Source: Actinopolyspora xinjiangensis (GTDB lineage: Bacteria; Actinomycetota; Actinomycetes; Mycobacteriales; Pseudonocardiaceae). Taken from it: DNA of 39,761 bases. The notes below the pieces were generated by a model that was not told the DNA's origin, did no database searches, and worked only from the letters and a program-made list of their open reading frames with translations. The stretch lies in assembly GCF_900104475.1 (NCBI RefSeq), contig NZ_FNJR01000021.1, positions 1 through 39,761 of the forward strand, given 5' to 3'. The position numbers and the translations under genes were made by a program. Below, piece by piece: positions 5,777-37,143 of the stretch. Position 1 is the first letter of the stretch. Each line of letters opens with the position of its first letter.

Positions 5777-5779
5777 TCT

Positions 5780-6030: not shown

Positions 6031-6033
6031 CTG

Positions 6034-6213: not shown

Positions 6214-6216
6214 CCG

Positions 6217-6671: not shown

Positions 6672-6685
6672 CACGAGCACACACG

Positions 6686-6735: not shown

Positions 6736-6755
6736 CATGATCACGGAAGGAGTGG

Positions 6756-8270: not shown

Positions 8271-8293
8271 CCCGCACGAAAGGCGGTCACCTC

Positions 8294-8479: not shown

Positions 8480-8492
8480 AAGGGGGCTGCTG

Positions 8493-9464: not shown

Positions 9465-9563
9465 TCGTCCGACTGCTCACTTCTCGGCGGAAACTCCCAT
9501 GTTGGCCTTGCTGCCCTGGGGGTTCCGTCCTTTTTTCGCGCTCTCAGTAGGGAAAGGGCAAGT

Positions 9564-11024: not shown

Positions 11025-11026
11025 CC

Positions 11027-11206
11027 ATGCGCAACCTGTGGACCCCGGCCGACGTGGCCGACTACCTCGGCGTGCCCACCAACACCATCTACCAATGGCG
11101 CAGCCGTGGCGGCGGGCCTCCCGGACGCAGGCTCGGCAAACACCTGCGGTTCAAGCCCGACGACGTCGAAGCCTGGTTCGACGACCAAGCCACGGAGGTG
11201 AGTTGA
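11027..11206 (+). CDS. xis: Excisionase (Xis, helix-turn-helix)
   Basis: The 59-residue protein starts MRNLWTPADVADYLGVPTNT and has the excisionase/HTH_17 winged-helix pattern: a helix-turn-helix (ADVADYLGVPTNTIYQWRSR) and a wing with GRRLGKHLRFKPDDVEAWFD. Xis binds near the att sites and directs the integrase toward excision. It begins 2 bases after the rep stop, and its TGA overlaps the int ATG (TGATG), so Xis and Int are co-translated. GGAG sits 7 bases before the ATG. Order and size match pSAM2-type xis. Confidence 0.88.
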   Translation: MRNLWTPADVADYLGVPTNTIYQWRSRGGGPPGRRLGKHLRFKPDDVEAWFDDQATEVS

Positions 11207-12354
11207 TGCCACGACCACCGTTGCCGTTGGGGACGCACGGTGAGATCCGGTGCTACAAGGTGGCCGAGAAGCGCTACCGGGCTCGGACGAAGTATCGGGA
11301 TTACGACGGCACCGTGCGGCATGTGGAGCGCATGGGCACGAGCAAGACCGGGGCCAAGGAGAACCTCAAGCAAGCCTTGCGTGACCGTGCTCGGTCGGTG
11401 GTCGGTGACGAGGTCACCGCTGCCAGCAAGGTCGCCGATGTGGCGGGGATCTGGCTTCGGGAGCTGGAGGAGTCCGACAAGGCGTTGCGGACCAAGCGTA
11501 CCTACCGCGACGCGTGGGAGCGTGATCTGTCCACAGCGGTCGGTTCGTTGCGGGTGGGTGAGGTGACCGTCTCGGTGGCCACGCGGGTGCTGCGATCGAT
11601 TCACGACAACGCCGGTTCGGGCAGTGCCAAGCATGCCAAGGTAGTGCTCTCCGGGGTGCTGGCCATCGCGGTGCGTCACGACGCGATCCCGAGCAATCCG
11701 GTCAACGAGGTGACGCTGCCGAAGGCGAGCGGGAAGCGTTCCGCCAAGCAGAAGACCGTGATCACCCGCGAGGAATACACCCGGTTGCGCAAACACTTGG
11801 CCGCCTCGGACAAGGCGCTGCGGCGGGACCTGCCGGACGTGGTGGACGCCTTGGCCGCTCTCGGGTGCCGCATCGGGGAACTGCTCGCGCTGGACTGGTC
11901 CAAGATCGACTTCGAGGCGGGCACGATCAGGATCGAGGGGACCGTGATCCGGGAGAAGGGCGTGGGGCTGTTCGTGCAGCCTCACACGAAGTCCTCGGCG
12001 GGCATGCGCACCGTCACCGTTCCGGGCTGGTTCGTGGCTCTGCTGCGCCGTCGTCACGAAGCCGCCGGAACCGAGTGGGTGTTCCCGTCGGCGTCGGGCA
12101 CGCTGCGTGATCCGGACAACACCCGTGCCGATCTGCGGGAGTCGGTGGCCGAGACCGAATGGGTCGGGCTGCATCCGCACGCCTTCCGGCACCTGGTCGC
12201 CACCCGACTCGACGAGGCCGGGTTGTCGGCCCGTGAGATCGCGGACTACCTCGGGCACGATCGGGTCAGCATGACCCAGGACGTGTACATGAATCGGAAG
12301 ACGGTCGGTGACTCGGCGGCCAGAGCCCTGGCCGACCTGCACCGGGAAGACTGA
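11206..12354 (+). CDS. int: Tyrosine site-specific integrase
   Basis: This 382-residue integrase recombines the tRNA-Arg-derived att sites. The N-terminus (residues 1-70) is an Arm-binding domain. The core-binding domain spans about 85-185 (VADVAGIWLRELEESDKALR...), and the catalytic domain runs to the end. Catalytic residues visible are Arg in ALGCRIGELLALDW, the H-x-x-R of HAFRHLVATRLDEAG, His in YLGHDRVSM, and the nucleophile Tyr in QDVYMNR. The ATG at 11206 overlaps the xis stop; an open frame extends further upstream but only as a shadow of xis. The right att core lies 65 bp after the stop, preceded by arm-type repeats. Confidence 0.93.
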   Translation: MPRPPLPLGTHGEIRCYKVAEKRYRARTKYRDYDGTVRHVERMGTSKTGAKENLKQALRDRARSVVGDEVTAASKVADVAGIWLRELEESDKALRTKRTYRDAWERDLSTAVGSLRVGEVTVSVATRVLRSIHDNAGSGSAKHAKVVLSGVLAIAVRHDAIPSNPVNEVTLPKASGKRSAKQKTVITREEYTRLRKHLAASDKALRRDLPDVVDALAALGCRIGELLALDWSKIDFEAGTIRIEGTVIREKGVGLFVQPHTKSSAGMRTVTVPGWFVALLRRRHEAAGTEWVFPSASGTLRDPDNTRADLRESVAETEWVGLHPHAFRHLVATRLDEAGLSAREIADYLGHDRVSMTQDVYMNRKTVGDSAARALADLHRED

Positions 12355-18231: not shown

Positions 18232-18858
18232 TCATCCCCGCGCTTGCTGGTGCCGCCTGCGGCGATCCGAGCGGCCGCGGCCGCGCTTGTCGCGGTACAT
18301 CGCGCGGTCGGCCTGCTCCAGCACGCCTTCGAGCGTGTCGGCCGGTCCGGCAGTGATCGCCGCTCCGATGCTCGCGCTCACCCACACGGTGGTTCCCTCG
18401 ATCAGCATCGGTTCGGCGAGCCGTTCGGCCAGCGCGTGCTGCAGCTCCTCGACCCGTTGCCAGTGCGAGGGAGTGTCCGGCAGCGTGCCGAGCCAGCAGG
18501 CGAACTCGTCGCCGGACAACCGCACGGCGAGCCGACCCGGGCGCCGGCTCTCGCGCATCCGCCGCGCCACCTCGCGCAGCACCTGGTCGCCGAAGCGGTG
18601 TCCGTGGGTGTCGTTGAGCTCCTTGAAACCGTCCAGGTCGAGCAGCAGCACGGCCACGCACCGGCCGTTGCCCGCGCCGTCGCGCTGGAAGGCCTCCCGC
18701 AGGGCGAGTCGGTTGCCGAGTCCGGTCAGCGGGTCGGTGCGCAGCTCGCGGTGTAATCGCGAGGCGTAGCGGCCGGTGCACCACCAGCCGGTGGCGGTCA
18801 GCCCCAGTGCGAGGGCGGTGAGCATTCCGTTCCTCGTCGAACCGTCGCGGAGTCGCAC
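18232..18858 (-). CDS. GGDEF-domain protein (diguanylate cyclase, SGDEF variant)
   Basis: The 208-residue protein has one N-terminal membrane helix (GMLTALALGLTATGWWCTGR), then a GGDEF domain from about residue 38: RTDPLTGLGNRLALREAF, LLLDLDGFKELNDTHGHRFG, RLSGDEFACWL and VSASIGAAI. The active-site loop is SGDEF in place of GGDEF; this variant is often active. It would make cyclic di-GMP at the membrane. No inhibitory I-site RxxD is seen just before the motif, and no sensor domain. The start is GTG 18858 after AAAGGAG. Its leader carries the conserved hairpin described at 18883-18928, shared with two genes of the transfer module. Confidence 0.85.
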   Translation of the reverse strand: MRLRDGSTRNGMLTALALGLTATGWWCTGRYASRLHRELRTDPLTGLGNRLALREAFQRDGAGNGRCVAVLLLDLDGFKELNDTHGHRFGDQVLREVARRMRESRRPGRLAVRLSGDEFACWLGTLPDTPSHWQRVEELQHALAERLAEPMLIEGTTVWVSASIGAAITAGPADTLEGVLEQADRAMYRDKRGRGRSDRRRRHQQARG

Positions 18859-18882
18859 GGTGTTCTCCTTTCGAGTGGGGTG

Positions 18883-18928
18883 GATGAATCCGGGTCACCG
18901 GGTGCTTGGCGGCTTCGTGGTGACTCGG
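18883..18928 (-). promoter_or_regulatory. Repeated 5'-leader hairpin, copy A (GGDEF gene)
   Basis: On the minus strand: stem CCGAGTCACC, a conserved loop CGAAGCCGCCAAGCACCC, stem GGTGACCCGG, then a downstream ATCCACCCC box, 23 bases before the GTG at 18858. The loop is identical in copies B (26283-26330) and C (26622-26672), but the stem sequence differs completely while still pairing. Confidence 0.6.
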
Positions 18929-18993
18929 ACCGTCCCGGCCGTGGTTCGGCCGGAAGTCCTCGGTGCGTCGGTCGTGGTGGCTAGGCTGGGCGC

Positions 18994-19287
18994 ATGGAGC
19001 TCGACAACAACTCGGTGGTGAACCTGCCCGGTGTGGACGACCGGGAGATGGATCGGCTGATCGCGCTGCGTGCGGCGTGCAACGTGGTCGGTCCTCCGAG
19101 CGAGTTCGCGGCGGTCGATCTGTTCGTGCACGAGTTCCGCGGCTGGCTGGCGCAGTCCACCGGGGACTCCGACAAGCTCTTCCGGCGCTACGTCCTGCTG
19201 CTGGTCACCGAGGGGCGTTCCGGGGTGGCCGACAGGGACGCGGCGAAGCTGCGCAAGACGATCGACGACATCTACCGCAAGGTCTGA
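18994..19287 (+). CDS. Small conserved hypothetical protein (97 aa)
   Basis: The protein MELDNNSVVNLPGVDDREMD...LRKTIDDIYRKV is acidic and helical, with no recognised motif. TAGGCT lies 7 bases before the ATG and no Shine-Dalgarno is present, which is the usual look of a leaderless actinobacterial transcript. Its TGA is directly next to the stop codon of the convergent TraB-like gene (shared TGATCA), so neither gene has room for a 3' untranslated region. Function is unknown. Confidence 0.6.
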   Translation: MELDNNSVVNLPGVDDREMDRLIALRAACNVVGPPSEFAAVDLFVHEFRGWLAQSTGDSDKLFRRYVLLLVTEGRSGVADRDAAKLRKTIDDIYRKV

Positions 19288-21087
19288 TCAGATCCGCTTC
19301 AACGCGGCGCGTACCTGGGTCATCGCGAGCCCGGTGTCCCGCATCAGCTCATCCACAGCCGGTTCGGTGCCCGCCGCGATCGCCTCTCGCACGGTCGCGT
19401 CGATGTCCTCGGCCGTCGGCCCGGAGGACCGCCGTGGCGGGGCGGTTTCCGCCGGTTTCTTCGCCGTGTTCAGTGCCGGTACCGGCTCGGCCGCCGAATC
19501 CGGATCGAGCCCGGTCGGCGTCACCGGCTGCTCGGCGGGGTTCTCCAGCAGCAACGCCCGCGCCCGGATCTTGCGCGAGGTCATCATGTAGCCGAGCCCG
19601 TGCGTCGAACTGCCGTCGGGGAACTCGGCGGGCAGGTCCTTCAGGTGCTCCGGCATCGGATCACCGGTGTCGATCATGTTCCCGGAGCCCTTCTCGGTGA
19701 TCCGCAGTCCCACGATCGTTCCCGCCTTGACCTGGTCGCGCAGCGCGGTCGAGTTGCCCAGCTGCTTAACCGAGGGCACCTGGGTAGCGAGGATCAGGCA
19801 GACGCCGAACTTGGCGCCCTCCTGCGTGATCTGCTCGCACATACGCACGATGTCGCGGTTGTCGGTCTCGTCGTCGCTCATCAGCAGCTTGTGCGCCTCG
19901 TCGATGACCACGGGCACCAGCGGCAGCTCCGGGGAAGGTTCCAGTGAGCCACCGCCCTGCCGTTCCACGACGGGGCGCCGCCGCTCGATCAGCCGCAGCG
20001 TGTAGCGCAGCACCTCGCGGGCCTGCTCCGGTGTGCCCGCGAACAGGTTGGCGCGCTCGCGCCACTGCGGCAGGGAGGCACCGCCGCCCCCGTCGATCAC
20101 CAGCGGATACACCCGGTCCGACATGCTGGCCTCGGTCAGCACCACGTCCAGCACCTTGGTCTTGCCCGAACGTGTCACCCCGGAGATGAGCGCGTGCAGG
20201 GCGCCGGCTCCCGGGTTCCACAGCTTGAAGTGCAGCGGCTCGCCGTCGGCGGCGATCATCAGCGGGAACTTGCCGGTGGCCGGGTCGAGACCCGGCCCGT
20301 TCCAGTGGTTCTTCTGCTGCAACGGGTCGCTGGTGAGCACGGTCAGCCGCGACTTGCGGACCGATTCGCCGTGCATCGCCTCCACGAACACCCGACCGTC
20401 GGGCAGGTCGTAGACCGACAGGATCGACTTCCGAGCCTGCAGCGTGGTGTGCCAGTGCTCCCCGATGGCCAGAGTCACCGTGGCCTTCCAGCCGTAGGCG
20501 AACTCGGTGATCCCGTCCAAGGCGGAGCCGGGGAGCGGTTTGCCGTTGGCGGCGATGTGCTCGTTCCACAGCTTCAGCTGCCGATCCGCCGTGCCGGGCG
20601 CCACCGGAAGCGCTTCCCTGGGCTGCGGTGGTGCGGCGAGTTCGGCGGTCACGTCCGGTTCCGGTTCCGCGTGCCGCACCCACCAGGGGATCGACAGGGC
20701 CGCGCCGAACGCCCACATGAGCCCAGCCGTCACACCGTTCGCGCCGGCCAGCGCGAGGGCCGCCTGCCAACCGGCGGAGCTTCCCGCCGCGACGCAGGCG
20801 TACAGCCGGTCCCAGCGGGAGGCGTTGCGGTGCACGTAGCCGTAGATCCCGGCCGAGGCGGTCCAGCCCGCCGCCACCGGCAGCAGCGCCTCCGGCGGGT
20901 CCAGCGCCGCCGCGACGGCCCCGATGCCGTGGGTGGCGCCGATCGCCGCGAACGGCATCGCCTGCATCCGGTAACGGCGCGTCAGGCGGCGAATCTCGCG
21001 TAGGACCGATTGCGTCCGCTGTGTTCCCTCCGGGGAGGTCGAGATCCCGTCGGAGTGATCGACCTTCGCGACCGCGGTTTCAGTCAT
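19288..21087 (-). CDS. TraB-like FtsK/SpoIIIE ATPase
   Basis: The 599-residue protein has two to four hydrophobic helices in residues 40-140, then an FtsK-type motor domain. Walker A is SGVTRSGKTK (302-311), and Walker B LVPVVIDEAHKLLM lies near 405, followed by FGVCLILATQVPSVKQ. The last 45 residues (TAEDIDATVREAIAAGTEPA onward) resemble a small winged helix, as in TraB and FtsK gamma domains that read DNA motifs. It should move double-stranded DNA during transfer. It differs clearly from the TraB at 6756, so the two modules have separate origins. The ATG overlaps the stop of the preceding 66-aa gene by 8 bases. Confidence 0.85.
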   Translation of the reverse strand: MTETAVAKVDHSDGISTSPEGTQRTQSVLREIRRLTRRYRMQAMPFAAIGATHGIGAVAAALDPPEALLPVAAGWTASAGIYGYVHRNASRWDRLYACVAAGSSAGWQAALALAGANGVTAGLMWAFGAALSIPWWVRHAEPEPDVTAELAAPPQPREALPVAPGTADRQLKLWNEHIAANGKPLPGSALDGITEFAYGWKATVTLAIGEHWHTTLQARKSILSVYDLPDGRVFVEAMHGESVRKSRLTVLTSDPLQQKNHWNGPGLDPATGKFPLMIAADGEPLHFKLWNPGAGALHALISGVTRSGKTKVLDVVLTEASMSDRVYPLVIDGGGGASLPQWRERANLFAGTPEQAREVLRYTLRLIERRRPVVERQGGGSLEPSPELPLVPVVIDEAHKLLMSDDETDNRDIVRMCEQITQEGAKFGVCLILATQVPSVKQLGNSTALRDQVKAGTIVGLRITEKGSGNMIDTGDPMPEHLKDLPAEFPDGSSTHGLGYMMTSRKIRARALLLENPAEQPVTPTGLDPDSAAEPVPALNTAKKPAETAPPRRSSGPTAEDIDATVREAIAAGTEPAVDELMRDTGLAMTQVRAALKRI

Positions 21088-21280
21088 GGTTCCACTCCGA
21101 TCCGGTGTCGCGGTGCAGCACGGCGACCTCGCCGTTGCGGTGCAGTTCGTCCAGGAATCCGGTGGGTTTGGTGTCCCAGTAGTGGCCGGGTTGGACGTAG
21201 ATGTCCCACGTGTCGGTGCTGGTCCGCTGGACCGCGATTTCGTCGTGGTCCAGTTCGAGCAGGGTGATGTCTCTGTCCAT
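21080..21280 (-). CDS. Small hypothetical protein (66 aa) coupled to the TraB-like gene
   Basis: The protein starts MDRDITLLELDHDEIAVQRT and ends LHRDTGSEWNHD, with short alternating strands that suggest a small beta fold. GAGGAG lies 5 bases before the ATG at 21280; the longer frame upstream crosses a strong hairpin and is not used. Its stop overlaps the start of the TraB-like gene, so it is co-translated with it. No family recognised. Confidence 0.6.
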   Translation of the reverse strand: MDRDITLLELDHDEIAVQRTSTDTWDIYVQPGHYWDTKPTGFLDELHRNGEVAVLHRDTGSEWNHD

Positions 21281-21315
21281 CTGGGCTCCTCGGGATGAGC
21301 TGTCGTGACCCGCAC

Positions 21316-21341
21316 CCCGCCCCGGCGGCTGCCGGGGCGGG
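21316..21341 (-). terminator. Perfect 11-bp hairpin between genes
   Basis: CCCGCCCCGGC and GCCGGGGCGGG pair perfectly around a GGCT loop, 16 bases after the stop at 21358 and 35 bases before the next start. It may lower readthrough into the TraB-like gene or stabilise the mRNA. Confidence 0.55.
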
Positions 21342-21357
21342 ACACGCACCCGGCAGC

Positions 21358-22608
21358 TCAGTACTGGTCGTACCAGCCCTTCTCGGCGACGTTGCTACTT
21401 CCGCCCGCGGCGGCCATCGCGTCCGCCACCCCGCCGTGCCTGCCTTCGACGTGCTTGTGCAGCCGGTCGGCCATCGGTGCGGCGGTGTCGAGCAGGTCGG
21501 CCAGCTCGTTGATCTGGTTCAGCGTCTCGGCGTCCAGGCTGTTGGCGGTGAGCACGTCGCCGAGGTTGGTCACCTCCTCGTGCGCCAGGGTGAGCAGCTT
21601 CGCCAGCGACTGCAGTGACTGGACGGTGTCGCTGTAGCCCTCGCCGGTCGCGGCGACCGTGTTGTTGGCTGGCATGAGTTCGGCCATGGTGTTGGTGATT
21701 CCTTTCGGTTCCTCGGTTTCTTCCTCGTGCTTGTCGGCGCGTTCCGCGTCGACGTAGATCCGGTGGGGTTGCTGCTCGCCGTTGGCGTGCCGCGAACCAC
21801 CGGACGATTGGGAGCTGCCGGGTGGCGGAGTTTCTGCTCCCGGCGTGGGGCCTGCGCCGCGCGAGTCATCGGCGGCGCCGGAGTCGTGCCACCAGGCGCA
21901 GTCGGGGCACCACCCGTCCTGGTCGAGCTCGTAGGGCTCGGTCAGTCGGGCGCACCATGCGCAGCGGCGGGGGACGGTGCTGCGCACGTGGGGGGTGTGC
22001 CAGCACGTGCGGCACAGGGGCCGTCCGGTGTGGATAACGCGCAGCTCGGTCCAGGGGTAGCGGGCGCGGCAAGCCGCGCACTGCCCGGTGGCTCCGCAGG
22101 CGTCGCCGCTTTCGGCGGGGCTGGTGCAGTCGGGGCAGGCGCCGGTCTGGTCGAGCTGTTCGCCGCGCACCCAGTAGCCGCAGTTGCGGCACTTGGCCAG
22201 CTCCACCCGAGGCCGCGGTGTCTCGCGGCGCCACTGCCGCCAGGCCTCGCGGTAGTGGGCACCCCGGCGTCCGGCTTCGAGCCCGACCCGGTATCCCGAG
22301 CGGCCACCGGAGACGGCGCCGGAGTAGGCGCCGACCGCGCCCGCACCGAGGGCGGCCACAGCTCCGGCGGTGACCCAGCCGGCGGCGTAGACCCACCACA
22401 GCAGGTGGCGCGGCCCGGTGGACACGGCGGCGTGCCACCGGGACTTGGCCGACCTGAGGCGTTCCTGTCGTGCTCGTTCCCTGGCCGCCCCGCGTTCCTC
22501 GGCACGGCGGCGGGCCTCGTCCCAGCGGGCTCTGGTGCGGGCGGTGCTCTGCTCGGCGGCGTGGGTGATCGCGGCCGCCAGCACCATCGCCAGAAGCAGC
22601 ATCCCCAT
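21358..22608 (-). CDS. Membrane-anchored zinc-ribbon protein with C-terminal AICE-type domain
   Basis: One open frame of 416 residues runs from ATG 22608 (GGAGGT upstream). It starts with a membrane helix (MGMLLLAMVLAAAITHAAEQ) and a charged coiled stretch. A second hydrophobic segment (WVTAGAVAALGAGAVGAYSG) follows, then three zinc-ribbon-like Cys pairs: CRNCGYW...CPDC, CAACRARYPW...CRTC and CAWC...CPDC. A low-complexity linker leads to a C-terminal domain from MAELMPANNTVAAT (21687) to GWYDQY. In other actinomycete elements a domain like this occurs as a free protein of about 110 residues, and AAAGGAA upstream of ATG 21687 could allow separate translation. Role unknown; probably transfer-related. 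Confidence 0.6.
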   Translation of the reverse strand: MGMLLLAMVLAAAITHAAEQSTARTRARWDEARRRAEERGAARERARQERLRSAKSRWHAAVSTGPRHLLWWVYAAGWVTAGAVAALGAGAVGAYSGAVSGGRSGYRVGLEAGRRGAHYREAWRQWRRETPRPRVELAKCRNCGYWVRGEQLDQTGACPDCTSPAESGDACGATGQCAACRARYPWTELRVIHTGRPLCRTCWHTPHVRSTVPRRCAWCARLTEPYELDQDGWCPDCAWWHDSGAADDSRGAGPTPGAETPPPGSSQSSGGSRHANGEQQPHRIYVDAERADKHEEETEEPKGITNTMAELMPANNTVAATGEGYSDTVQSLQSLAKLLTLAHEEVTNLGDVLTANSLDAETLNQINELADLLDTAAPMADRLHKHVEGRHGGVADAMAAAGGSSNVAEKGWYDQY

Positions 22609-23018
22609 CACTGACCTCCGATCAGCCTGCCGATGCTGTTCGCACCGACCTGCGAGATCGCTTCGGTCAGCCCGGAGCCCGCCTCGGCCAGCGGACCGAC
22701 ACCGGCCAGGAACAGCACCGGCAGCACGACCAGACAGATCAGCGCCGTCTTGTCGGCCTTCCGGTCGATGCCGATGTCGTAGACGGTCAGCACGATGAGC
22801 AGCAGGGTCGCCGCTCCCACGACGATGCTGCTGTTGACCGGAACGATGCCGACGATCTCGTTGATGCGGGCGGCCAGCCACGCGCCGAGCGCGGTGTCCG
22901 CCAGCGAGCACCCGCCGATGAAGACCAGCGAGGACTTCAGCCACCAGGGGTTGGCCTTCTTGCGCTTCCAAAGGATCGTGACCAGTCCGAAGGCCACGAT
23001 CATGATCGCCCAGGACAA
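22608..23018 (-). CDS. Small integral membrane protein (136 aa)
   Basis: The protein starts MSWAIMIVAFGLVTILWKRK and has about four hydrophobic segments, ending in a Gly/Ser-rich tail. GAGGAG lies 5-7 bases upstream of the ATG at 23018. Its TGA overlaps the ATG of the next gene (TGATG). The topology is reminiscent of PrgI/TrbC-like or Spd membrane components of transfer systems, but no signature motif is seen, so the function stays open. Confidence 0.6.
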   Translation of the reverse strand: MSWAIMIVAFGLVTILWKRKKANPWWLKSSLVFIGGCSLADTALGAWLAARINEIVGIVPVNSSIVVGAATLLLIVLTVYDIGIDRKADKTALICLVVLPVLFLAGVGPLAEAGSGLTEAISQVGANSIGRLIGGQ

Positions 23019-23036
23019 GATTCCTCCTCGGGGAGT

Positions 23037-23588
23037 TCAGACCGCCAGCACGGTGATCAGCACGGCTACGGCGGTGGTCAGCAGGAGTCGGGAAGGCCGG
23101 CGAGCCAGCCAGAGCAGCGCGTATCCCACGGCGGTGATCACCAGGGACACCCAGCCGAACCACTGCCCGGCGGCCCGCAGCGCGGGGATGTCGCCGGACC
23201 ACTCGGCGCGTCGCGCGCGGGTGTGGATGTCGCGGAGGGACGGTGGACGAGCCCGCCACACCGAGCCGTCCAGGGCCGCACGGGCGCTGCTGCCGGCCTC
23301 CGAGGTCCAGGCGGCGGCCGCCTTCCGCAGCTTCACCACGGAGACGTGCGCGGGTCTCCCGCCGTACGAGTGCGGTTCGACTCGACTACTCGTCGTGTTC
23401 GAACCCTGCCGGTCGCTCGGGAACGGCAGCACCTCGCCGCCCTCGGTTTCCGCGTCCTGTTCGGCGGGTTCCTCGCGCGCGCGTGCGCGATCGCGCTCGG
23501 GCTCGCGCTCACGCCCCCGATCGGGACCTTCTTCCGAAGGGTTCGCGGTGGCCGAATCGGGGCTCTCCCACGGATCCGGGATAGGCAT
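23037..23588 (-). CDS. Membrane protein with disordered acidic N-terminus (183 aa)
   Basis: The first 60 residues are low-complexity Glu/Arg/Pro (EPERDRARAREEPAEQDAE and similar). A basic middle follows, and the C-terminus has two hydrophobic helices (FGWVSLVITAVGYALLWLA and LLLTTAVAVLITVLAV). It should sit in the membrane with a large cytoplasmic N-terminal part. Its start overlaps the previous gene's stop by one base (TGATG). Unknown function within the transfer module. Confidence 0.55.
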   Translation of the reverse strand: MPIPDPWESPDSATANPSEEGPDRGREREPERDRARAREEPAEQDAETEGGEVLPFPSDRQGSNTTSSRVEPHSYGGRPAHVSVVKLRKAAAAWTSEAGSSARAALDGSVWRARPPSLRDIHTRARRAEWSGDIPALRAAGQWFGWVSLVITAVGYALLWLARRPSRLLLTTAVAVLITVLAV

Positions 23589-24016
23589 CAGCGGTCACCA
23601 CCTTCGGCGTCGATCAGCTGGGCCTCCTCGCCCAGGTGCCGGGCGTAGTGCTCGAACAGCCGGTCACGCTCCGTTTCCGGCAGCAGCGAGATCGCACCCC
23701 GCAGGCACATCAGCGCGTTGCCCAACCGCGCCGAATCGGTGCCGCTCTGTTTGAGCTTGCTGTCGTAGAGCGCCGCGCTCGCCGCGTTCGGCTCGCCACG
23801 GTCGAGCACCCGCCGCACGTGCTCGGCGATCTCCTCGTACTTCCCGCGCGCCGTCCGGGCCGGAGCGCGGGAGTGGGCGACGGCGCTGAGCAGCGCGTCC
23901 TGCGCGGCCCGGAACCGTTCCACCGGGGTGCTCGCCTTGCGCGCCCGGTCCGCGTGGTGTGCGCTGCGGCGCCGCATCGAGCGCACCCGTTTCGGCTCAC
24001 GCTTCGTCGTCGCCAT
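23588..24016 (-). CDS. Basic helical hypothetical protein (142 aa)
   Basis: The protein starts MATTKREPKRVRSMRRRSAH and is strongly basic at its N-terminus, then helical (RFRAAQDALLSAVAHSRAPA, LYDSKLKQSGTDSARLGNAL). The basic head suggests nucleic-acid contact. ATG 24016 is preceded by GGAGGTGG, 5 bases upstream; ATG 24034 is less well placed. It overlaps the 3' end of the upstream 74-aa gene by 20 bases. I do not recognise the family. Confidence 0.55.
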   Translation of the reverse strand: MATTKREPKRVRSMRRRSAHHADRARKASTPVERFRAAQDALLSAVAHSRAPARTARGKYEEIAEHVRRVLDRGEPNAASAALYDSKLKQSGTDSARLGNALMCLRGAISLLPETERDRLFEHYARHLGEEAQLIDAEGGDR

Positions 24017-24221
24017 GTTCGTCCACCTCCTCACCGCGTGCGCGCATCGCGTCGAGTTCCACTTCGTCGGCGCACTGCCAGATGTCCATCTGGTCGTCGG
24101 CCTGCCAGCGGCCTTCGCACTGCCAGGCGGTCGCGGCTATCGGCCGCCCGGCCGGGCCACGGCGGGTGTGCAGCGCCCGCCGCGCCCGTTCGATCTGTTC
24201 CCGGCTGAACTGTTCGGTCAT
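23997..24221 (-). CDS. Small acidic protein (74 aa)
   Basis: The protein MTEQFSREQIERARRALHTR...DEHGDDEA has a basic helix at the start and an acidic end. Two cysteines (WQCEGRW, WQCADEV) could bind a metal. Its ATG overlaps the stop of the DUF2637 gene by 4 bases (ATGA), so it is translationally coupled. Unknown function. Confidence 0.55.
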   Translation of the reverse strand: MTEQFSREQIERARRALHTRRGPAGRPIAATAWQCEGRWQADDQMDIWQCADEVELDAMRARGEEVDEHGDDEA

Positions 24222-25345
24222 GCCGCGACCTCCGCCCTGCCGTCGCCGCCGCGACCGCGCAGTGCGCGCAGCACCTCCTGCGCCGTGGTGGCGCGGATAC
24301 CGAGGTGCCGCTGCACGGCCCGCCGGCTCGGCCGCGGGTTCAGCTCGCCCGCCTCGATCGCCCGCCGGGTCCGGGCCACCAGTTCGGACAGCTCGTCGGT
24401 GGTTCCCGAATCGGACGCTGTCGAGCTCGCCGAGTCGGTTTTCGCTGTTCCCGCCGGTTCCGAAGGGGTTGGTTCACCGGAGAGCCACCGGCCGATCTCG
24501 GCGGCCAGTTGCTCGCCCGGATCGGTCTCCTCGGGCCGCTGGGAACCGTTCGGCGGCAGGCCGGGAACCACCGCGTCCCGCAGCCGCCGCGCCCCGAGCG
24601 GGCCGCGTCCGAGCGTGACCGTGCCGGGGGCGTGCCGGAGCCGGATCGAACCGTCCGCACCGAGTTCGCCGACCGATCGGCGGACGGCGGCCCGCTCCAT
24701 CCGAACCCTGCGACGCTGCGAGATCCGGTCCGTGCGGGCGGCTTCCCGCTCGGCGCGGGAACGGCGGGTGCGCATCGGAGCGGCGGTGATCAGCTGGTGC
24801 GCGACCACGCCGCCGACCGAGACCAGCGCCATGACCAGCCCGGTCACCACACCGGAGGCGCCGAAGCCGTGCAGGAAGTTCAGCGCGGCGTTGACCGCGG
24901 CGAACGTCCACACCCCGGTGTGCAGCCACCCCGTCGGACGTCCCTGGCGTCGGGCCAGGTGCACCGAGAACGCGAACGCCCACATCGCGCCCTCGCTGAA
25001 CAGCGGCAGCACGCCACCGAGCGGCCCGTAGATGTCCACCCCGTAGGCGGCCATCGCCGACCAGGCCAGCAGCGCGGGAACCACCACGATCACGCTCATC
25101 AGCAGCTCGGTCGGATGCGCGCCGATCCAACCGCCCGCCGAGGCGAGCCGCTGCCTGCGCTCGGCGGCACGACGCCGGCTGCGCTGTTCCCGCTCGGCCC
25201 GCTCCTCGCGGGCCCGCCGCGCGGCGTCCTCGGCCACGGCACGCCGGGTCTCGGCACGCACCGACTCGGCCTCGGCCCTGACGCGTTCCGCCTCGCCCCT
25301 GGCCGCGGCTCGTGCGGCGCGCGGGTCCGTGAAGCGAGTGCTCAT
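24218..25345 (-). CDS. DUF2637-type membrane protein (SpdB-like)
   Basis: The 375-residue protein begins with a long Arg/Ala/Glu helix (residues 1-65) likely to form a coiled coil. Four membrane segments follow (PTELLMSVIVVVPALLAWSA, LPLFSEGAMWAFAFSVHLA, WLHTGVWTFAAVNAALNFLH, VVTGLVMALVSVGGVVAHQL); the F-E/A-W spacing is typical of DUF2637. A C-terminal helix-turn-helix-like part (SRRAVQRHLGIRATTAQEVL) closes it. Such proteins accompany TraB in actinomycete elements and are thought to aid spread. It overlaps both neighbours by 4 bases (ATGA junctions). Confidence 0.72.
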   Translation of the reverse strand: MSTRFTDPRAARAAARGEAERVRAEAESVRAETRRAVAEDAARRAREERAEREQRSRRRAAERRQRLASAGGWIGAHPTELLMSVIVVVPALLAWSAMAAYGVDIYGPLGGVLPLFSEGAMWAFAFSVHLARRQGRPTGWLHTGVWTFAAVNAALNFLHGFGASGVVTGLVMALVSVGGVVAHQLITAAPMRTRRSRAEREAARTDRISQRRRVRMERAAVRRSVGELGADGSIRLRHAPGTVTLGRGPLGARRLRDAVVPGLPPNGSQRPEETDPGEQLAAEIGRWLSGEPTPSEPAGTAKTDSASSTASDSGTTDELSELVARTRRAIEAGELNPRPSRRAVQRHLGIRATTAQEVLRALRGRGGDGRAEVAA

Positions 25346-25725
25346 GCCGCTTCACCTCCGATCTCGGCGAGGCGGCCCTGCTGCCGCAGCTTCCGGAAGA
25401 TCCTGCTCAGCCGCTGGAAGTCGGGCTGGCCGACTCCGCCCCAGCCGCCGTAGCGCTCGCCGCGCAGCAGCGCGCCCGCCAGGCACGCGTCGGCCACCGG
25501 GCAGCCCCGGCACTGCTCGGCGATGCGTTCGCGCTCGGCCCGGATGAGCCGTTCCCCGCTGTCCTCGTCGGCGTTCGGGAAGAACACTTCCACCGGGACC
25601 TCGGCGCAGTTGCGCCGTTCGTCGTCGCTGACCTTCAGGTGCAGCTCCCAGCCGTCGGCCTCGGCGAACCGGGCGGCACGTTCGAGCTGTTCGCGCTGGA
25701 AGTGGGTGATCCTGTTGTTCGGCAT
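25342..25725 (-). CDS. WhiB-family iron-sulfur regulator
   Basis: The 127-residue protein has the four-cysteine WhiB pattern: C40 (RRNCAEVP), then C72-x2-C75-x5-C81 (CRGCPVADAC), which bind a [4Fe-4S] cluster. The signature GGWGGVG loop is at about 93-99, followed by a basic tail (RLSRIFRKLRQQGR) for DNA or sigma-factor contact. WhiB-like proteins are redox-sensing transcription factors found only in actinobacteria and their phages and elements. Here it sits inside the transfer operon, so it probably regulates that element. The ATG overlaps the stop of the upstream 177-aa gene (ATGA-type junction). Confidence 0.9.
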   Translation of the reverse strand: MPNNRITHFQREQLERAARFAEADGWELHLKVSDDERRNCAEVPVEVFFPNADEDSGERLIRAERERIAEQCRGCPVADACLAGALLRGERYGGWGGVGQPDFQRLSRIFRKLRQQGRLAEIGGEAA

Positions 25726-26258
25726 CACGCGGCCTCCGTCCGCACGAGATCGACGAGTGCGCCACCGAGGGCGGAATTGACGAGTCCGCAGAGCTGTTCG
25801 AGTGCTTCCTTGGCGGTCTCGGTGACCGGCACGGCCAGCGGGGAGTAGGCCGGTTCGGGCAGCCGGTCGGTGGGCACGGGGATGTCGAGCCGCAGGATGT
25901 TGGTCACCTGCGTCGGACCGCTGATCCAACCGCTCCCGCGGCTTCGCAGTCCGCGCACGATCTCGGAAGGCAGCTTCGTGGCGAGGTCGACGCGGATCGC
26001 CGTCGTGCCGTCCTCCTCGCGCAGGAGCGTCGCGTCGAGGACCCGGTCGTGCGCGACGAGGTAGCCCGGCGTCATCACCGGTGGCCGCGCGATCCGCCAG
26101 GCGGAGGCGGCGAACTCCACGGGGTCCTCGGTGGGCTCTTCTCCGTCGAGGAAGGCGGCGGTGTTGCGCCGCAGGTACGCCCCGAAGCGGGATTCGGAGT
26201 CGCTGGCGTGGTCGCGGTCGTAGCGGTCGTCGGGGTGAATGAGAAGTGTTGAACGCAC
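25725..26258 (-). CDS. Hypothetical protein (177 aa) with hairpin leader
   Basis: From GTG 26258 the protein begins with VRSTLLIHPDDRYDRDHASD and continues through an alpha/beta region (APGYLVAHDRVLDATLL-like, then NILRLDIPVPTD) with no known motif. GGGAG lies 6 bases upstream of the GTG; the open frame continues upstream but across the neighbouring gene. The mRNA leader carries copy B of the repeated hairpin. The stop overlaps the WhiB start. Unknown function. Confidence 0.6.
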   Translation of the reverse strand: MRSTLLIHPDDRYDRDHASDSESRFGAYLRRNTAAFLDGEEPTEDPVEFAASAWRIARPPVMTPGYLVAHDRVLDATLLREEDGTTAIRVDLATKLPSEIVRGLRSRGSGWISGPTQVTNILRLDIPVPTDRLPEPAYSPLAVPVTETAKEALEQLCGLVNSALGGALVDLVRTEAA

Positions 26259-26282
26259 TGTTGTCTCCCGATAGCTGGGTTG

Positions 26283-26330
26283 AGGTGGACCGTCCGGGGC
26301 GACGGGTGCTTGGCGGCTTCGATCGCCCCG
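26283..26330 (-). promoter_or_regulatory. Repeated 5'-leader hairpin, copy B
   Basis: On the minus strand the stem CGGGGCGA/TCGCCCCG closes the conserved loop CGAAGCCGCCAAGCACCC, followed by GTCCACCTC. The motif ends 25 bases before the GTG at 26258 and starts just after the stop at 26341. Confidence 0.62.
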
Positions 26331-26340
26331 CTCGGCGGAG

Positions 26341-26589
26341 TCAGAGTCCGAGGAGGTGTTTCCCGGACTCGGTGAGTACGGCTCGCACGCGGGCTCCGCC
26401 GATCGCGGAACCGCCCGGTTCGAGCAGCCCGTCGTGCGCCAGGTGGTGAGCCGTGACCTGGTCACAGCAGCAGGCTCCGTCCACGAACAGGTCGGGTTCG
26501 CTGCCTTGGCTCATCTTGACCCGGCCCTCGGCGACCGCGCGTAGCGTCGCGCGTTCCCGGTGGTTGAGCTCAGCGCTCGTGCGGGACAC
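26341..26589 (-). CDS. Small winged-helix-like protein (82 aa)
   Basis: The protein from GTG 26589 begins with VSRTSAELNHRERATLRAVA and continues through a Cys triplet (DGACCCDQ), a helix (VTAHHLAHDGLLEPG) and RARAVLTESGKHLLGL-like strands. The order helix - helix - wing with TESGKHLL at the end is common in small DNA-binding winged helices. AAGGAG lies 8 bases upstream of this GTG; GTG 26598 is too close to that site. Copy C of the repeated hairpin lies in its leader. It overlaps the end of the upstream replication-type gene by 20 bases. Confidence 0.55.
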   Translation of the reverse strand: MSRTSAELNHRERATLRAVAEGRVKMSQGSEPDLFVDGACCCDQVTAHHLAHDGLLEPGGSAIGGARVRAVLTESGKHLLGL

Positions 26590-27463
26590 TGGAATCACTC
26601 CTTCCGGTTTCCTGATCGGTTGGGGTGGACGGCTCGGGGCGGTGGGTGCTTGGCGGCTTCGGCCGCCCCGAGTCGGGATCTGCGTTGCTCGGGTGGCAGT
26701 GCGGGCAGCGCGCCCAGCGGCCGTCCGAGCGTTCGACCGTCCGGCTGGGCTCGTCGCAGCTCCCGCACCACTCCGGCCGTTGCGGTGGTGCGGTGTCCGC
26801 GACGGGTTCCGGCAGATCGTCGAGCCGTGCGTTGAGCACGGCGGCCGGTGACTTCACGCCCTCCGGGTTCGCCCCGAGGTAGTGCGCGAGCCGTTGGCTG
26901 GACCAGCCCGCGGCCAGCGCCTGGACCACTTTCGGTGCGATCCGCTTGCGCTGTCGCGGCGTCAGCGGCCACGAACCCCCGAGCCCGTCGAGCACGGCGT
27001 CGATGTCGGTTTCCGCCTCCTCCTGTTTCCCGGATTCCGCCGCGCGCGAGCCGGTGGAGGGTTCCAGGACGGTTCCGGGTGGTTCGGGCGGCGCAGCTGT
27101 GCCGGGGGTGGGGCGGCGTGGCTGTGCCACCCCTGGGGTGGCAGCGGTGCCACCGGTGGCGTTCTGCCGGGGGTGGCGTTTCGCCGGGGGTGTGGACAAC
27201 TGCTGTCCCATCAGGACGGTGTAGCGGTTGGCCTCCCTTCCGCCGCGCTTGTCGATGTGCAGCTGCCCCTGGTCGGAGAGCTTGCGCAGGATGCGTTGCA
27301 CCGTGCGCTCGTCCAAGCGGGTCTTGCGGGCGAGCGTGCTGATCGAGGGGAAGGCGTTCGTGCCGTCGTCGGCGGCGTTGTCGGCGATCGCCAGCAACAT
27401 CAGCAGCTCCGTTCCCTTGGTCGGGGAGTTGTCCCAGACCCACGTCATGACCTTGATGCTCAT
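26570..27463 (-). CDS. Helix-turn-helix replication-type protein with C-terminal zinc ribbon
   Basis: The 297-residue protein starts MSIKVMTWVWDNSPTKGTEL, the standard opening of the helix-turn-helix proteins that replace Rep in many actinobacterial elements and phages. The winged helix (ISTLARKTRLDERTVQRILR, residues 42-62, then GQLHIDKRGGREANRY) binds DNA. A Pro/Ala-rich linker and a conserved middle domain (LTPRQRKRIAPKVVQALAAG) follow. A zinc ribbon CGSCDEPS...CPHCHPS lies near 235-260. It is likely the replication initiator or its loader for the module, a role inferred from family habit. The tail is proline-rich and disordered, and encodes the copy C hairpin. Confidence 0.65.
   Translation of the reverse strand: MSIKVMTWVWDNSPTKGTELLMLLAIADNAADDGTNAFPSISTLARKTRLDERTVQRILRKLSDQGQLHIDKRGGREANRYTVLMGQQLSTPPAKRHPRQNATGGTAATPGVAQPRRPTPGTAAPPEPPGTVLEPSTGSRAAESGKQEEAETDIDAVLDGLGGSWPLTPRQRKRIAPKVVQALAAGWSSQRLAHYLGANPEGVKSPAAVLNARLDDLPEPVADTAPPQRPEWCGSCDEPSRTVERSDGRWARCPHCHPSNADPDSGRPKPPSTHRPEPSTPTDQETGRSDSSVPHER
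26622..26672 (-). promoter_or_regulatory. Repeated 5'-leader hairpin, copy C
   Basis: On the minus strand CTCGGGGCGG pairs with CCGCCCCGAG around the conserved loop CGAAGCCGCCAAGCACCC, followed by GTCCACCCC. It ends about 32 bases before GTG 26589 and lies inside the 3' coding end of the upstream gene, so the sequence is constrained twice. Confidence 0.62.
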
Positions 27464-27511: not shown

Positions 27512-27769
27512 TCACGCCGCGCCTTCCACCGCGAACTCGGCGGCGTCGACGGTGCTGTTGCGCTCGATCGCGGTGTCGACCATCTCGTCCACGGCCTTGG
27601 CCGGGACGATCAAGCGGCCCCGGATGCGGATCGCGGGAAACTCGCGGCCGGCGATCGCTCGGTACAGCGTCATCGAGGACACCCCGAAGAGCTGGGCTAC
27701 TTGCTCGACGCTGTAGAAGCGGGGCGCTTCGGCGGTCGCTCCGCTCCGGCTGTTGAACATCTGCCTCAC
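27512..27769 (-). CDS. Xis/MerR-like helix-turn-helix protein
   Basis: The 85-residue protein from GTG 27769 (GGAGG 6 bases upstream) has the excisionase-type DNA-binding domain: FYSVEQVAQLFGVSSMTLYR (helix-turn-helix) and IRIRGRLIVPAKAVDEMVDT (wing and closing helix). It is the first gene of the leftward transfer module, divergent from an XRE repressor across an 18-bp palindrome. With no integrase visible, it may act as a recombination directionality factor for an absent integrase or as an activator of the operon. Confidence 0.75.
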   Translation of the reverse strand: MRQMFNSRSGATAEAPRFYSVEQVAQLFGVSSMTLYRAIAGREFPAIRIRGRLIVPAKAVDEMVDTAIERNSTVDAAEFAVEGAA

Positions 27770-27930: not shown

Positions 27931-28293
27931 GTGGAGGACGACTGGGCCGCTGTGGCGGAGGCGATCTCGAACCGCCTGCGTGAGCTGGGACTGACCCAGT
28001 TGGAAGTCGCGGCCAGGTCCAAGGTTTCGCCGGCCACCATCCGCGAGCTGCAGTACAACAAGATGCCGCGGCGCAGGAACCCGCGAACCCTCGAAGCGCT
28101 GTCCGAAGCGCTGGACTGGCCCCCCGACTACCTGGGGAACGTGCTCAGCGGAGCGGCGGCACGGCCACACGCCGACGAGGCGAACGATCCGGTGCTGCGC
28201 AAGCTCGACGACGTGCTCGATCAGCTCGAGCAGCTCAGGAGCCGCGTCGATGCCGTCGAGCGGCGCCAAGCAGGCGAAGCCGAGCAGTCCTGA
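27931..28293 (+). CDS. XRE-family repressor with coiled-coil tail
   Basis: The 120-residue protein begins MEDDWAAVAEAISNRLRELG and has an XRE helix-turn-helix (LTQLEVAARSKVSPATIREL, residues 20-40, with the recognition helix facing DNA). A long C-terminal helix (PVLRKLDDVLDQLEQLRSRVDAV in outline) is a coiled coil for dimer formation. GGAGGTGAGCA precedes the GTG start at 27931. Divergent from the transfer module, it is probably its master repressor. A small gene overlaps its 3' end on the other strand. Confidence 0.8.
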   Translation: MEDDWAAVAEAISNRLRELGLTQLEVAARSKVSPATIRELQYNKMPRRRNPRTLEALSEALDWPPDYLGNVLSGAAARPHADEANDPVLRKLDDVLDQLEQLRSRVDAVERRQAGEAEQS

Positions 28294-31819: not shown

Positions 31820-33121
<1,302 letters not shown>

Positions 33122-33129
<8 letters not shown>

Positions 33130-33766
33130 CCCATTCCCCCAGGGGTAGTGGTGTGAACAGCGAGGCGGAAGGCCGGATGTTCGCTTCGGGCATGCACCCC
33201 GCACGCAACGAGCACCGATCGCATCGCGAGTCGTTGACCGCTTCGGGAACCACCTCGGAGCGCAGCATTTCCCGCAGTTCGGTCACGGTTTCTCGTAGTC
33301 GGTTCTCGAGCGAGTCGTCGACAGTCACCTCGTAACGCCGTCGGTGCTTGCCCGCGAAGACGATGCCCTTCGGGACAGGGGAGTCGAACATGCCGCGCAG
33401 GCACAGCACCTGCGCGGCCACTTGCAGATCCGCCGCGCTTCCGGGGCGGTAGCTGCCGGACTTGTGCTCCACCGGCACAGGACCGTCGGCACCGAACTCC
33501 ACCACGTCACAGATGCCGTGGATGCCGAGGTCGTCATCCCACACCGGTAAGGCGGTCCAACGTCGCTGTCCCGATCTGCTCGTTCTCGAATCGCCGCGAT
33601 CGACGGCGCTGTGGGCGATCTGCCCTCGCGCCGTCTCCGCGCTGTCCTCGAAGTATCGTTCGAGGTGAATCAGAGCGGCCTGCCTGGGGCAGTAGGCGTA
33701 GTGCTCGATCGCGGCGATCGGAATGCTCGACCACGCGGGTTCGTCCGCTCTTTCCGCCGGGTACAT
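33122..33766 (-). CDS. cas4: Cas4 (PAM-selecting exonuclease)
   Basis: The 214-residue protein carries the Cas4 iron-sulfur ligands: Cys in HYAYCPRQAAL near residue 26, and CDRCSLRAGC near the C-terminus. Between them is the RecB-like nuclease core: GICDVVEFGADGPVPVEHKSGSY holds the Asp and the E-x-K. Cas4 trims prespacers and enforces PAM choice and orientation during adaptation. The start overlaps the cas7 stop by one base (TGATG). The full set of motifs is present. Confidence 0.93.
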
Positions 33767-34662
33767 CAGGCGACGACCTTCGTCATCGTCACTCCGCGCG
33801 GCAGGTCGTCGTCGGCCACGCTGACGGTGTAGTCGCCGAAACCGCGGGGGACTTTCCCGGCCGCCGCGGCGGAGGGGACATCCACCCTGTTGAGCAGGGT
33901 GTGCGCGGGGGCGCTGCCGAACGCGTTGTCGTGGCTGAACACGTACAGCCCACGGGCGGTCATGGTTCCACGCGCGGAGGAACGATCGTGATCGAACATC
34001 ATGGCCAGCGTGCGGTAGAACAGCTCCAGGTCCGTGCTGTCCACACCGGTCTGCTGGCCGCGACTTGCTGAGTAGTAGATCTCGGCCCGGTAGAGAGCGT
34101 AGGGAACGGTCCACTTGCCACCCATCTCGGTGGTCTCGCCCTTGTCGATGTCCTCCTGCTTGGTCTGGGTGATACGGGTTATGGCGTGGTGCTGCGGCAT
34201 CACCGGATCGACGCTGCGGGCGTTGGTTACCTGCATCGGGCCGTAGATCTGGCCGAGGTCCTTGGTGGTGCCGGTGTTGAGCACGGCCCCGAACAGGCGC
34301 ATGTCCGCGTAGCGCTCGGTCAACCAGGAGCGCGCCGTTCTGCGGTCCTCGTCGGTGAGGGACTTCTTCTTGTCCAAACCGGTCTCTGCCTTGGAGGCGC
34401 CCAGCTTGGTGTTCAGCGCATGACCGGCTTCGACGAAGATGCCGTAGCGGTCTTCGTTGTCGGTGCCCTGGGCGGCCATGGGCAGGCTGTCGCGCACCTT
34501 GCGCTTGATCGCCACGTCGCTGACCAGGCCGTGCCCGGTTTCCTCGTCCATGCGAGGCCGGTTGTCGAAATCGGGATCGCCGTTGGGGTTGCCGTCGGCG
34601 ACGTCGAACAGGAACACCATGTCGTGGCGCACGGTCGGGTCGAGGTGCGGTTCGATGGCCAT
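33766..34662 (-). CDS. cas7: Cas7 (Csd2, crRNA backbone subunit of type I-C Cascade)
   Basis: The 298-residue protein starts MAIEPHLDPTVRHDMVFLFD and continues VADGNPNGDPDFDNRPRMDE, the hallmark opening of Csd2/Cas7 of subtype I-C. It also has GMVSDVAIKRKVRD-type and QIYGPMQVTNARSVDPVMPQ segments. Several copies coat the crRNA spacer in the complex. AAAGGAA precedes the ATG at 34662 by about 7 bases; the open frame continues upstream only as a shadow of cas8c. No disruption is seen. Confidence 0.95.
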   Translation of the reverse strand: MAIEPHLDPTVRHDMVFLFDVADGNPNGDPDFDNRPRMDEETGHGLVSDVAIKRKVRDSLPMAAQGTDNEDRYGIFVEAGHALNTKLGASKAETGLDKKKSLTDEDRRTARSWLTERYADMRLFGAVLNTGTTKDLGQIYGPMQVTNARSVDPVMPQHHAITRITQTKQEDIDKGETTEMGGKWTVPYALYRAEIYYSASRGQQTGVDSTDLELFYRTLAMMFDHDRSSARGTMTARGLYVFSHDNAFGSAPAHTLLNRVDVPSAAAAGKVPRGFGDYTVSVADDDLPRGVTMTKVVA

Positions 34663-34694
34663 TGCCGGTTCCTTTCCGGGGAAGTAGTGGGTGG

Positions 34695-35126
34695 TCAGTT
34701 TTCGGTCTCGGACTCCGAGCCCGAGTCCTTCTCGGCTTTGCGCTTGCGGGCCTGGTCCATGTCGTGAGCTTTCTGGTGGTGATAGCCCAGCAGGAACATC
34801 GCCTGCTGATCGGGCGAGAGGTAGCCGGTCGTGCTGCGTCCCGGATCGATCAGCTTGCGGAGCTCCGACAACTTCTGTCCGAGCGCGTTGGCCTTTGCCT
34901 TGGTGTCCCCGCGACGCCGCAGTTTGGCCAGCCACGAAGTGGCGAGCTTTTCACCCGCGAGGATGGCCGGCGTCGGATTGCCGATCGCCGAGGACAGGAA
35001 ACGGTCACCGAAAGTGGCGTTCAGCTGCCCGTCGCTGGCGTGGTACTGGATCTGTTCGAGATGGGCGAAGATCCTGCCGGACACGTACGGCGTGTCCGTG
35101 CGGTTCTCGTCCAGACCTGGTGACAT
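34695..35126 (-). CDS. cas11c: Cas11c (small subunit from internal start in cas8c)
   Basis: Inside cas8c the minus strand reads AAGGAGGT-TCAC-ATG, a perfect Shine-Dalgarno 4 bases from an in-frame ATG at 35126. The resulting 143-residue product starts MSPGLDENRTDTPYVSGRIF and is helical and basic, as is known for Cas11 of type I-C. In characterised I-C systems Cas11c is produced just this way and is needed for a full Cascade complex. The position, about 75 percent along cas8c, matches. Confidence 0.8.
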   Translation of the reverse strand: MSPGLDENRTDTPYVSGRIFAHLEQIQYHASDGQLNATFGDRFLSSAIGNPTPAILAGEKLATSWLAKLRRRGDTKAKANALGQKLSELRKLIDPGRSTTGYLSPDQQAMFLLGYHHQKAHDMDQARKRKAEKDSGSESETEN

Positions 35127-37105: not shown

Positions 37106-37143
37106 GGGCGGGGCTCCTTCGGGGGATTTCGGCAGTTCCCGAC

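Follow-up and report, generated by a model that had tools for sequence, protein, structure and literature searches.

The MS2/R17 coat-protein hairpin is a phage translational operator that overlaps the start region, and in double-strand origins (dso) of the pSAM2/pC194 group the nick site lies in or near a hairpin. Cluster K mycobacteriophages carry the repeats called ESAS, in which conserved 17-bp inverted-repeat arms enclose a variable spacer, beside the 13-bp SAS GGGATAGGAGCCC (PMC3203893). For pSAM2-type conjugative elements, the regulation that we found in the literature is transcriptional, through KorSA and Pra (PMC8584621), and the replication initiator RepSA nicks a dso of the pC194 type (PMC3218068). 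Here we analyse a 39,761-nt stretch of the Actinopolyspora xinjiangensis genome (contig NZ_FNJR01000021.1, positions 1 to 39,761; 'the window' means this whole stretch), in which three genes of an apparent transfer element, one of them encoding a GGDEF enzyme, are each preceded by a hairpin (A, B and C). We consider it probable that the three hairpins belong to one structured leader RNA family of actinobacterial integrating conjugative elements and plasmids, which is read by a trans-acting RNA-binding protein and sets translation. We infer the RNA level, the translational step, the existence and identity of the factor, and the sign and trigger of control.

The original prediction, made from the window alone, claimed three leader copies with an invariant loop, and the loop CGAAGCCGCCAAGCACCC indeed occurs in three exact copies on the minus strand (18900-18917, 26304-26321 and 26644-26661). 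With three mismatches allowed, dinucleotide shuffles gave a mean of 0.12 loop matches and reached three copies in 0/100. Each copy is closed by its own, differing stem ahead of a gene: ten positions with one mismatch in A, eight perfect pairs plus a U-G adjoining the loop in B, and ten perfect pairs in C. The stems therefore differ and each self-pairs, as proposed, while the supposed single G-T of copy A is an A.C in the mRNA-sense strand (G.T only on the opposite strand). All three stems are followed by the box [GA]TCCACCYC that had been described, then by a purine-rich Shine-Dalgarno (SD) sequence and a GTG start (18858, 26258 and 26589). RNAfold recovered the stem in 3/3 copies (z = -3.8 for A, -2.4 for B and -3.3 for C), and a covariance model trained without A-type copies (R1) scored hairpin A at 50.2 bits (E 2.8e-10). 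Copies C and B lie within a gene run, C overlapping, as had been noticed, the 3' coding end of an upstream 297-aa DnaD_N/HTH_36 open reading frame (ORF), and B beginning 8 nt past a stop codon; copy A heads the GGDEF gene alone, its upstream gene (18994-19287) being on the opposite strand. The rest of the genome holds no further exact loop copy and one two-mismatch site on another contig.

Related hairpins recur in other genomes. A loop search with at most one mismatch in 61 genomes of the family matched 12, of which seven were accepted (the window's own genome, five congeners and one of another genus), with 3-4 copies each; the other five (L005, L006, L012, L014 and L015) showed no comparable stem by eye, and exact-pattern matches at L004-L006, L012, L014 and L015 were dropped on that ground. 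Model R1, made from 13 B-, C- and D-type copies alone, matched 25 of 390 family genomes at E<=0.01. Fourteen were accepted on stem, loop and context (G000-G004, G006, G008, G014, G118, G245, G375, G392, G411 and G413), and the remaining 11, only some of which were inspected, are regarded as chance or unresolved. Weak model matches such as G233, G011, G241, G237, G240 (loop 9 nt shorter), G412, G117 and G001:C4:125745 are likely chance and were excluded from later models; those inspected had no convincing gene start behind them, and G153, G336 and G408 were left uninspected. Three of ten Actinopolyspora genomes gave no model match. A scan of 84,980 species genomes for loop plus box returned 11 stretches, all in six species: Actinopolyspora biskrensis, A. 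mzabensis, Saccharopolyspora aridisoli, S. soli, Halopolyspora algeriensis and Halosaccharopolyspora lacisalsi. Across other Actinopolyspora, Saccharopolyspora, Halopolyspora and Halosaccharopolyspora, the same element mostly carries 3-4 hairpins.

Beyond the family, model R2 matched the own genome and eight others, all of the genus g109, which in our judgement is Streptomyces, in an even sample of the phylum (396 genomes); its 11 matches in a sample of the order (397 genomes) were mostly already known or weak. Model R3, which includes g109 copies, matched 148 of 246 g109 genomes at E<=0.01; the g109 hairpin is a variant and, in the copies read, often stands ahead of repSA. The covariance-model search of actinobacterial genomes that had been recommended thus found the motif. 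In a sample of the class (296 genomes, 115 genera), 17 genomes matched at E<=0.001, among them 15 of g109 and the own genome; the seventeenth is G1451 (locus L228). This near-absence from other sampled genera also serves as a rough false-positive control, stricter filters being applied to large samples. Named Streptomyces plasmids bear related hairpins, and one IMG/VR contig matches the g109 loop pattern; a BLAST search with one g109 copy gave no match in a phage collection and two weak ones in a plasmid collection, one of them L207 (model E 3e-4). The hairpins at L228 (1501-1553, CCGCCAAG loop) and L207 (4002-4055, CTCCAAG) have good stems, with no same-strand gene behind them. Sixty further g109 places were sampled out of many listed. 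L222-L227 and L229-L233 were left out of the gene-position reading. The A8 alignment comprises 80 loci; it leaves out L107, L111, L113, L115, L116, L119, L122-L126, L128-L130 and L133, whose duplicate status is unchecked, and L089-L091 and L093, which are present as longer loci too, and all omitted loci were model-scanned.

The compensating stem changes first proposed from three copies hold in the homologues. In a MAFFT alignment of the 13 B, C and D copies, 91.6% of cells were paired, 8/11 pairs had double changes and the covariation score was reached by 0/500 shuffles. Thirty copies gave 90.7% paired cells and double changes at 11/11 pairs, and 38 copies from both bacterial groups gave 92.0%, with compensatory change at 11/11. 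On a tree of 85 distinct hairpins, 33 branches carried double-compensatory changes against 2.8 +/- 1.6 (maximum 8 in 300) under a phylogenetic null in which substitutions were re-placed on the tree (300 runs), and 94.0% of cells were paired against 65.1 +/- 5.5. Among 703 column pairs, the outer stem pairs ranked 1, 2, 3, 5, 6 and 7, and the other five of the 11 ranked 10, 13, 14, 25 and 54. The structure is under selection.

In the loop, the apical core met most often is C[CGCCAA]G, with CGCCAA nearly invariant between two bacterial families. The apical domain is probably an inner helix plus hexaloop, because the two loop positions flanking CGCCAA pair above shuffles, alone among the inner positions, and the closing pair swaps from C-G to U-A (L167, L176 and L179; also L234, L236, L237 and L245). 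An alternative fold joining GGCGG of the left arm to CCGCC of the loop was rejected, as it needs a GGCGG stem and is broken in copies A and B; inspection of a subset by eye found nothing conserved that complements the C-rich loop and would indicate a loop-to-tail pseudoknot or anti-SD pairing. In the upstream gene of G411, the loop falls in a different reading frame from that in other elements. In the Halopolyspora (L063 5163-5313) and S. aridisoli elements the gene behind hairpin C has apparently shrunk to 19-22 codons with the hairpin intact, an arrangement seen at loci L063 and L064 (12373-12214). The loop has been kept despite a frame change and an apparent reduction of the downstream gene, so conservation acts on the nucleotide sequence and the fold.

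The geometry relative to gene starts is fixed. An SD and start lie 68-105 nt from the first base of the hairpin in 113/114 distinct copies, a loose rule met by random places in the same loci at 0.24. The start falls at 78-90 nt in 93/113 copies against 0.052 of random places, or in 47/113 against 0.024 when ATG or GTG and a stricter SD list are demanded, and the standard deviation of the distance is 5.6 nt against 17.3 nt at random places. From the 3' end of the hairpin to the start codon the median is 42 nt (quartiles 39.5-45; 113 distinct copies), a set in which the automatic choice gave copy A an ATG 33 nt downstream (63 nt) instead of GTG 18858 (30 nt) and in which a few similar misassignments are likely among 22 'other' rows. 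By sequence motif or BLAST cluster, the genes behind the hairpins form eight groups: repSA, three kinds of small Cys-motif proteins, the 82-aa and 177-aa proteins, GGDEF, and two related ORFs of 704/732 aa ('zinc-ribbon-like' and similar names for the small proteins denote Cys motifs, with no family match behind them). The hairpin is tied to the starts of mobile-element genes. The original prediction had named, as outcomes that would count against it, stems that lose pairing in homologues and a dispersed repeat with no link to gene starts; on both points the data favour its structured-leader interpretation, which they support.

Upstream, a stop codon lies within 25 nt of the hairpin in 96/113 copies against 0.246 by chance, with a median gap of 6 nt. 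This position directly past a stop, together with the very stable stems, would also suit an mRNA processing or stability element, at which a host RNase cuts or protects and operon cistrons come to differ in lifetime with no dedicated regulator. Stability does not need a near-invariant apical sequence, however, the start-codon distance is about as tight as the stop-codon distance, and copy A and the matching L063 and L065 copies follow an opposite-strand gene; we think such an element unlikely. The same tight spacing to stop and start could mark a translational insulator or coupling sensor that keeps ribosomes of the upstream gene from reinitiating, opens when they terminate and works with no trans factor. 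Its loop would be free to vary, yet CGCCAA hardly differs between two bacterial families, and window copy A is preceded by an opposite-strand gene, so there is nothing there to decouple; we judge this explanation quite unlikely. The linker between hairpin and SD (median 48% C, 19% G) recalls a transcriptional attenuator or Rho-related leader, in which the C-rich linker and loop would control elongation, but a T-tract is absent in 113/113 copies and attenuation has no use for fixed start spacing, which makes it highly improbable. An intrinsic terminator was rejected, TTTT occurring within the next 10 nt in 0/113.

A further reading places the function in DNA, as a rolling-circle dso or another single-stranded DNA hairpin for replication or transfer. 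In its favour, the g109 hairpin often adjoins repSA, whose product nicks a dso as noted above: of 30 g109 RepSA loci scanned (one per genome, from 81 matches in 36/41 genomes), 22 gave a model match at E<=0.04; in L241, which is among these, the loop is a different one. By motif, 42/79 distinct A8 copies stand before rep; the BLAST cluster (60/84) overstates repSA because some start choices were in wrong frames. The sense strand also has no G-U excess, and the g109 loop CTCGATA resembles the pC194-family nick sequence. On the other side, no hairpin was found within the fetched flank at 8/30 RepSA loci (one of these, G1104, has one ~2.6 kb upstream), and elements carry up to four copies, start-spaced where checked. 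The own genome's single RepSA match (window 9621-10973) has no hairpin and belongs to a different element from the hairpins, which sit as three copies in an element without a RepSA match. A rolling-circle origin is for this reason disfavoured and was rejected as a general explanation, and we regard a DNA-level role as very unlikely.

RepSA itself appears to use a non-canonical start. At 35 distinct g109 repSA loci (L097 8786 onwards and 34 others), the start is apparently AUC in 32/35 and AUU in 3/35, with a strong SD and the conserved N-terminus I-I-T-R-x-T-P-P-P-L; 9/35 have no ATG, GTG or TTG within 60 codons downstream, and in 4/35 an ATG or GTG lies upstream in frame. At some RepSA loci the gene is preceded by a strong hairpin whose loop differs (L249, arms GAGCAGCACC and GGTTGCTGCTC; L241 2844-2909).

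A link to cyclic di-GMP (c-di-GMP) had been drawn from the GGDEF gene behind copy A. What recurs is an association and not a mechanism, 5/113 distinct hairpins directly heading a GGDEF gene. In the elements of the window, A. biskrensis and S. aridisoli, the gene follows the hairpin directly; in Halopolyspora, Halosaccharopolyspora and S. soli it is set apart from the hairpin by one small gene or two, of which the first is zinc-ribbon-like. Two g109 elements (L108 and L173) also have a GGDEF gene behind the hairpin; where read, the signature motif is SGDEF, AGDEF or GGDEF. Among 12 plasmid GGDEF loci, the model gives a match before the gene in L212 and L215. A stem-loop with CCAA is visible by eye in L218 and L219 (L219 model E 0.045) and, before a WhiB gene that precedes the GGDEF gene, in L206 and L217; L221 has none just ahead of its GGDEF gene. 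The other five have, by eye, GC-rich hairpins with other loops at the same place before Streptomyces/Kitasatospora plasmid GGDEF genes (L213 2839, L214 2833, L220 2851, L211 2827 and L216 2839), which may represent a broader class of start-spaced leader hairpins. The association is no evidence for a c-di-GMP sensor and does no more than suggest a link to c-di-GMP.

The hairpin sets a conserved apical loop on a variable stem and keeps both its orientation to the gene and its spacing from the start; the best explanation is a trans-acting reader governing the loading of the small ribosomal subunit (30S). RNA is likely the active form because most copies stand directly behind an upstream gene. In this translational mechanism, the hairpin would sit in the mRNA just ahead of the ribosome-binding site, its variable outer stem presenting the conserved apical domain (probably the short inner helix and C[CGCCAA]G loop) to the RNA-binding protein. 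Judged by the 30S footprint on mRNA, a position ~42 nt before the start would be the upstream edge of the 30S seat, where the bound or unbound hairpin could set small-subunit loading. Where it stands behind an upstream gene, the hairpin lies a median 6 nt past the stop, so a terminating ribosome should melt it and would thereby couple control to upstream translation. Several element genes, for the replication initiator, small zinc-ribbon-like proteins and the GGDEF enzyme, would come under one post-transcriptional control.

Several observations weigh against this reading. Covariation, for which a significance test had been recommended, exceeds the null on the tree but is weak in an R-scape-like per-pair test (60 simulations), where E<0.05 was reached by 1/16 given pairs and 0/687 others; in the 13-copy set, further pair types fell below shuffles (12 vs 14.1), and covariance-model alignments are biased towards the structure. 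The inner helix is weak, with 2 double-change branches vs 0.2 in the null, and on the full tree it is paired as often (74.1%) as in the null (74.6%). Stem positions 3-10 show no strand preference (G-U 10 vs A-C 9), and RNA and single-stranded DNA are therefore not told apart. The SD has a median unpaired probability of 0.47 and is not clearly hidden, so the fold alone explains no switch. The L228 and plasmid L207 matches precede no gene on their own strand, the closest SD and start at L228 being on the opposite strand. When window-element proteins were compared with the gene calls of 26 loci (phmmer), only the Xis-like HTH and, at one locus, WhiB matched in g109 elements, so no shared reader was found.

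We also entertain, as a rather unlikely possibility, a narrower form of the reader model: an element-specific post-transcriptional regulon in which one reader of C[CGCCAA]G hairpins, perhaps a hairpin-headed zinc-ribbon-like protein, jointly times excision, replication and host c-di-GMP during transfer. Its jointly set outputs would be the replication initiator (with its apparent AUC start in many g109 elements), zinc-ribbon-like proteins and the diguanylate cyclase.

The genes around the hairpins look like a transfer element (Table 1), which also encodes a WhiB-like and a DUF2637 protein (Pfam, gene calls). For the 82-aa protein, originally called winged-helix-like, Pfam yields nothing meaningful. 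The DnaD_N/HTH_36 protein is perhaps the replication initiator of the hairpin element. A second, pSAM2-like element in the window has no such hairpin before its repSA, and CRISPR-Cas genes (Pfam Cas1, Cas4, Csd1 and Cas3) lie near the hairpin element at 31820-39357. The neighbourhood of the hairpin element seems conserved, since Halopolyspora L063 also has, by eye, a Cas3-like gene and the same HTH gene with the element adjoining.

Table 1. Features of the window. Boxes and SD positions, the Xre-like and Xis-like labels, and all labels of the second element except RepSA were read from the sequence alone.
Feature	Position	Strand	Remarks
Hairpin A	18890..18928	-	Stem CCGAGTCACC / GGTGACCCGG, one A.C mismatch; 19-nt apical region with conserved loop
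Box of copy A, ATCCACCCC	18877..18885	-	Then SD AAGGAG (18870-18865)
Hairpin B	26295..26330	-	Stem CGGGGCGAT / GTCGCCCCG around conserved loop
Box of copy B, GTCCACCTC	26282..26290	-	Then SD GGGAG (26269-26265)
Hairpin C	26633..26672	-	Stem CTCGGGGCGG / CCGCCCCGAG, in 3' coding end of 297-aa ORF
Box of copy C, GTCCACCCC	26622..26630	-	Then SD AAGGAG (26603-26598)
GGDEF (diguanylate cyclase) gene behind hairpin A	18232..18858	-	Pfam PF00990, E 3e-35; signature motif SGDEF
FtsK/SpoIIIE-type (TraB-like) transfer gene, hairpin element	19288..21345	-	Pfam E 6e-6; ORF as listed, likely start 21087
177-aa protein gene behind hairpin B	25725..26258	-	No Pfam family; conserved in related elements
82-aa protein gene behind hairpin C	26341..26589	-	No family found; homologues in S. 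soli, G411 and congeners
DnaD_N/HTH_36 protein, 297 aa	26570..27463	-	Pfam HTH_36 6e-10, DnaD_N 5e-6; 3' end contains hairpin C
Xis-like HTH protein	27512-27769		
Xre-like gene	27931-28293	+	
Second, pSAM2-like element	4485-12354		GntR-like, FtsK/TraB-like, RepSA (9564-11024), Xis-like, integrase-like (11206-12354)

Searches against Rfam 15 gave 0 matches at the gathering threshold in the window, only three sub-threshold matches, none at hairpins, in L001, L002 and L021, and 0 at E<=2 in eight further loci. SAS had 0 matches in the window, the only stretch searched, with up to two mismatches (1.14 expected by chance). We found no description of the hairpin in the openly licensed literature searched, a scope that excludes the original pSAM2 papers, and rate it a new family of a known kind, the leader hairpin. 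A hairpin that covaries and is start-spaced, present in 148/246 sampled g109 genomes, would add an RNA layer to element replication and spread. Its CGCCAA loop would offer a concrete target for finding the reader protein, and because it recurs before diguanylate cyclase genes, a c-di-GMP link from element to host can be put to the test.

With c-di-GMP riboswitches and other Rfam leaders, the hairpin shares its leader position and some downstream GGDEF enzymes; it differs in having no Rfam 15 match in the pieces searched. The MS2/R17 operator is likewise a protein-read hairpin loop controlling translation of the next gene (the reader being a proposal here), but it overlaps the start region, whereas the present hairpin ends ~42 nt upstream. 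The comparison with the dso of the pSAM2/pC194 type (PMC3218068) rests on the place of the hairpin near repSA in many g109 elements, whereas the present hairpins occur several per element, start-spaced, in an element without a RepSA match. ESAS, as presented in PMC3203893, are also gene-oriented inverted repeats that recur before the starts of several unrelated genes of an actinobacterial mobile element, with a proposed role in translation initiation. They are the nearest described feature, but follow the reverse logic: ESAS conserve the arms and vary the spacer, whereas the present hairpins conserve the apical loop and have arms that change in a compensated way.

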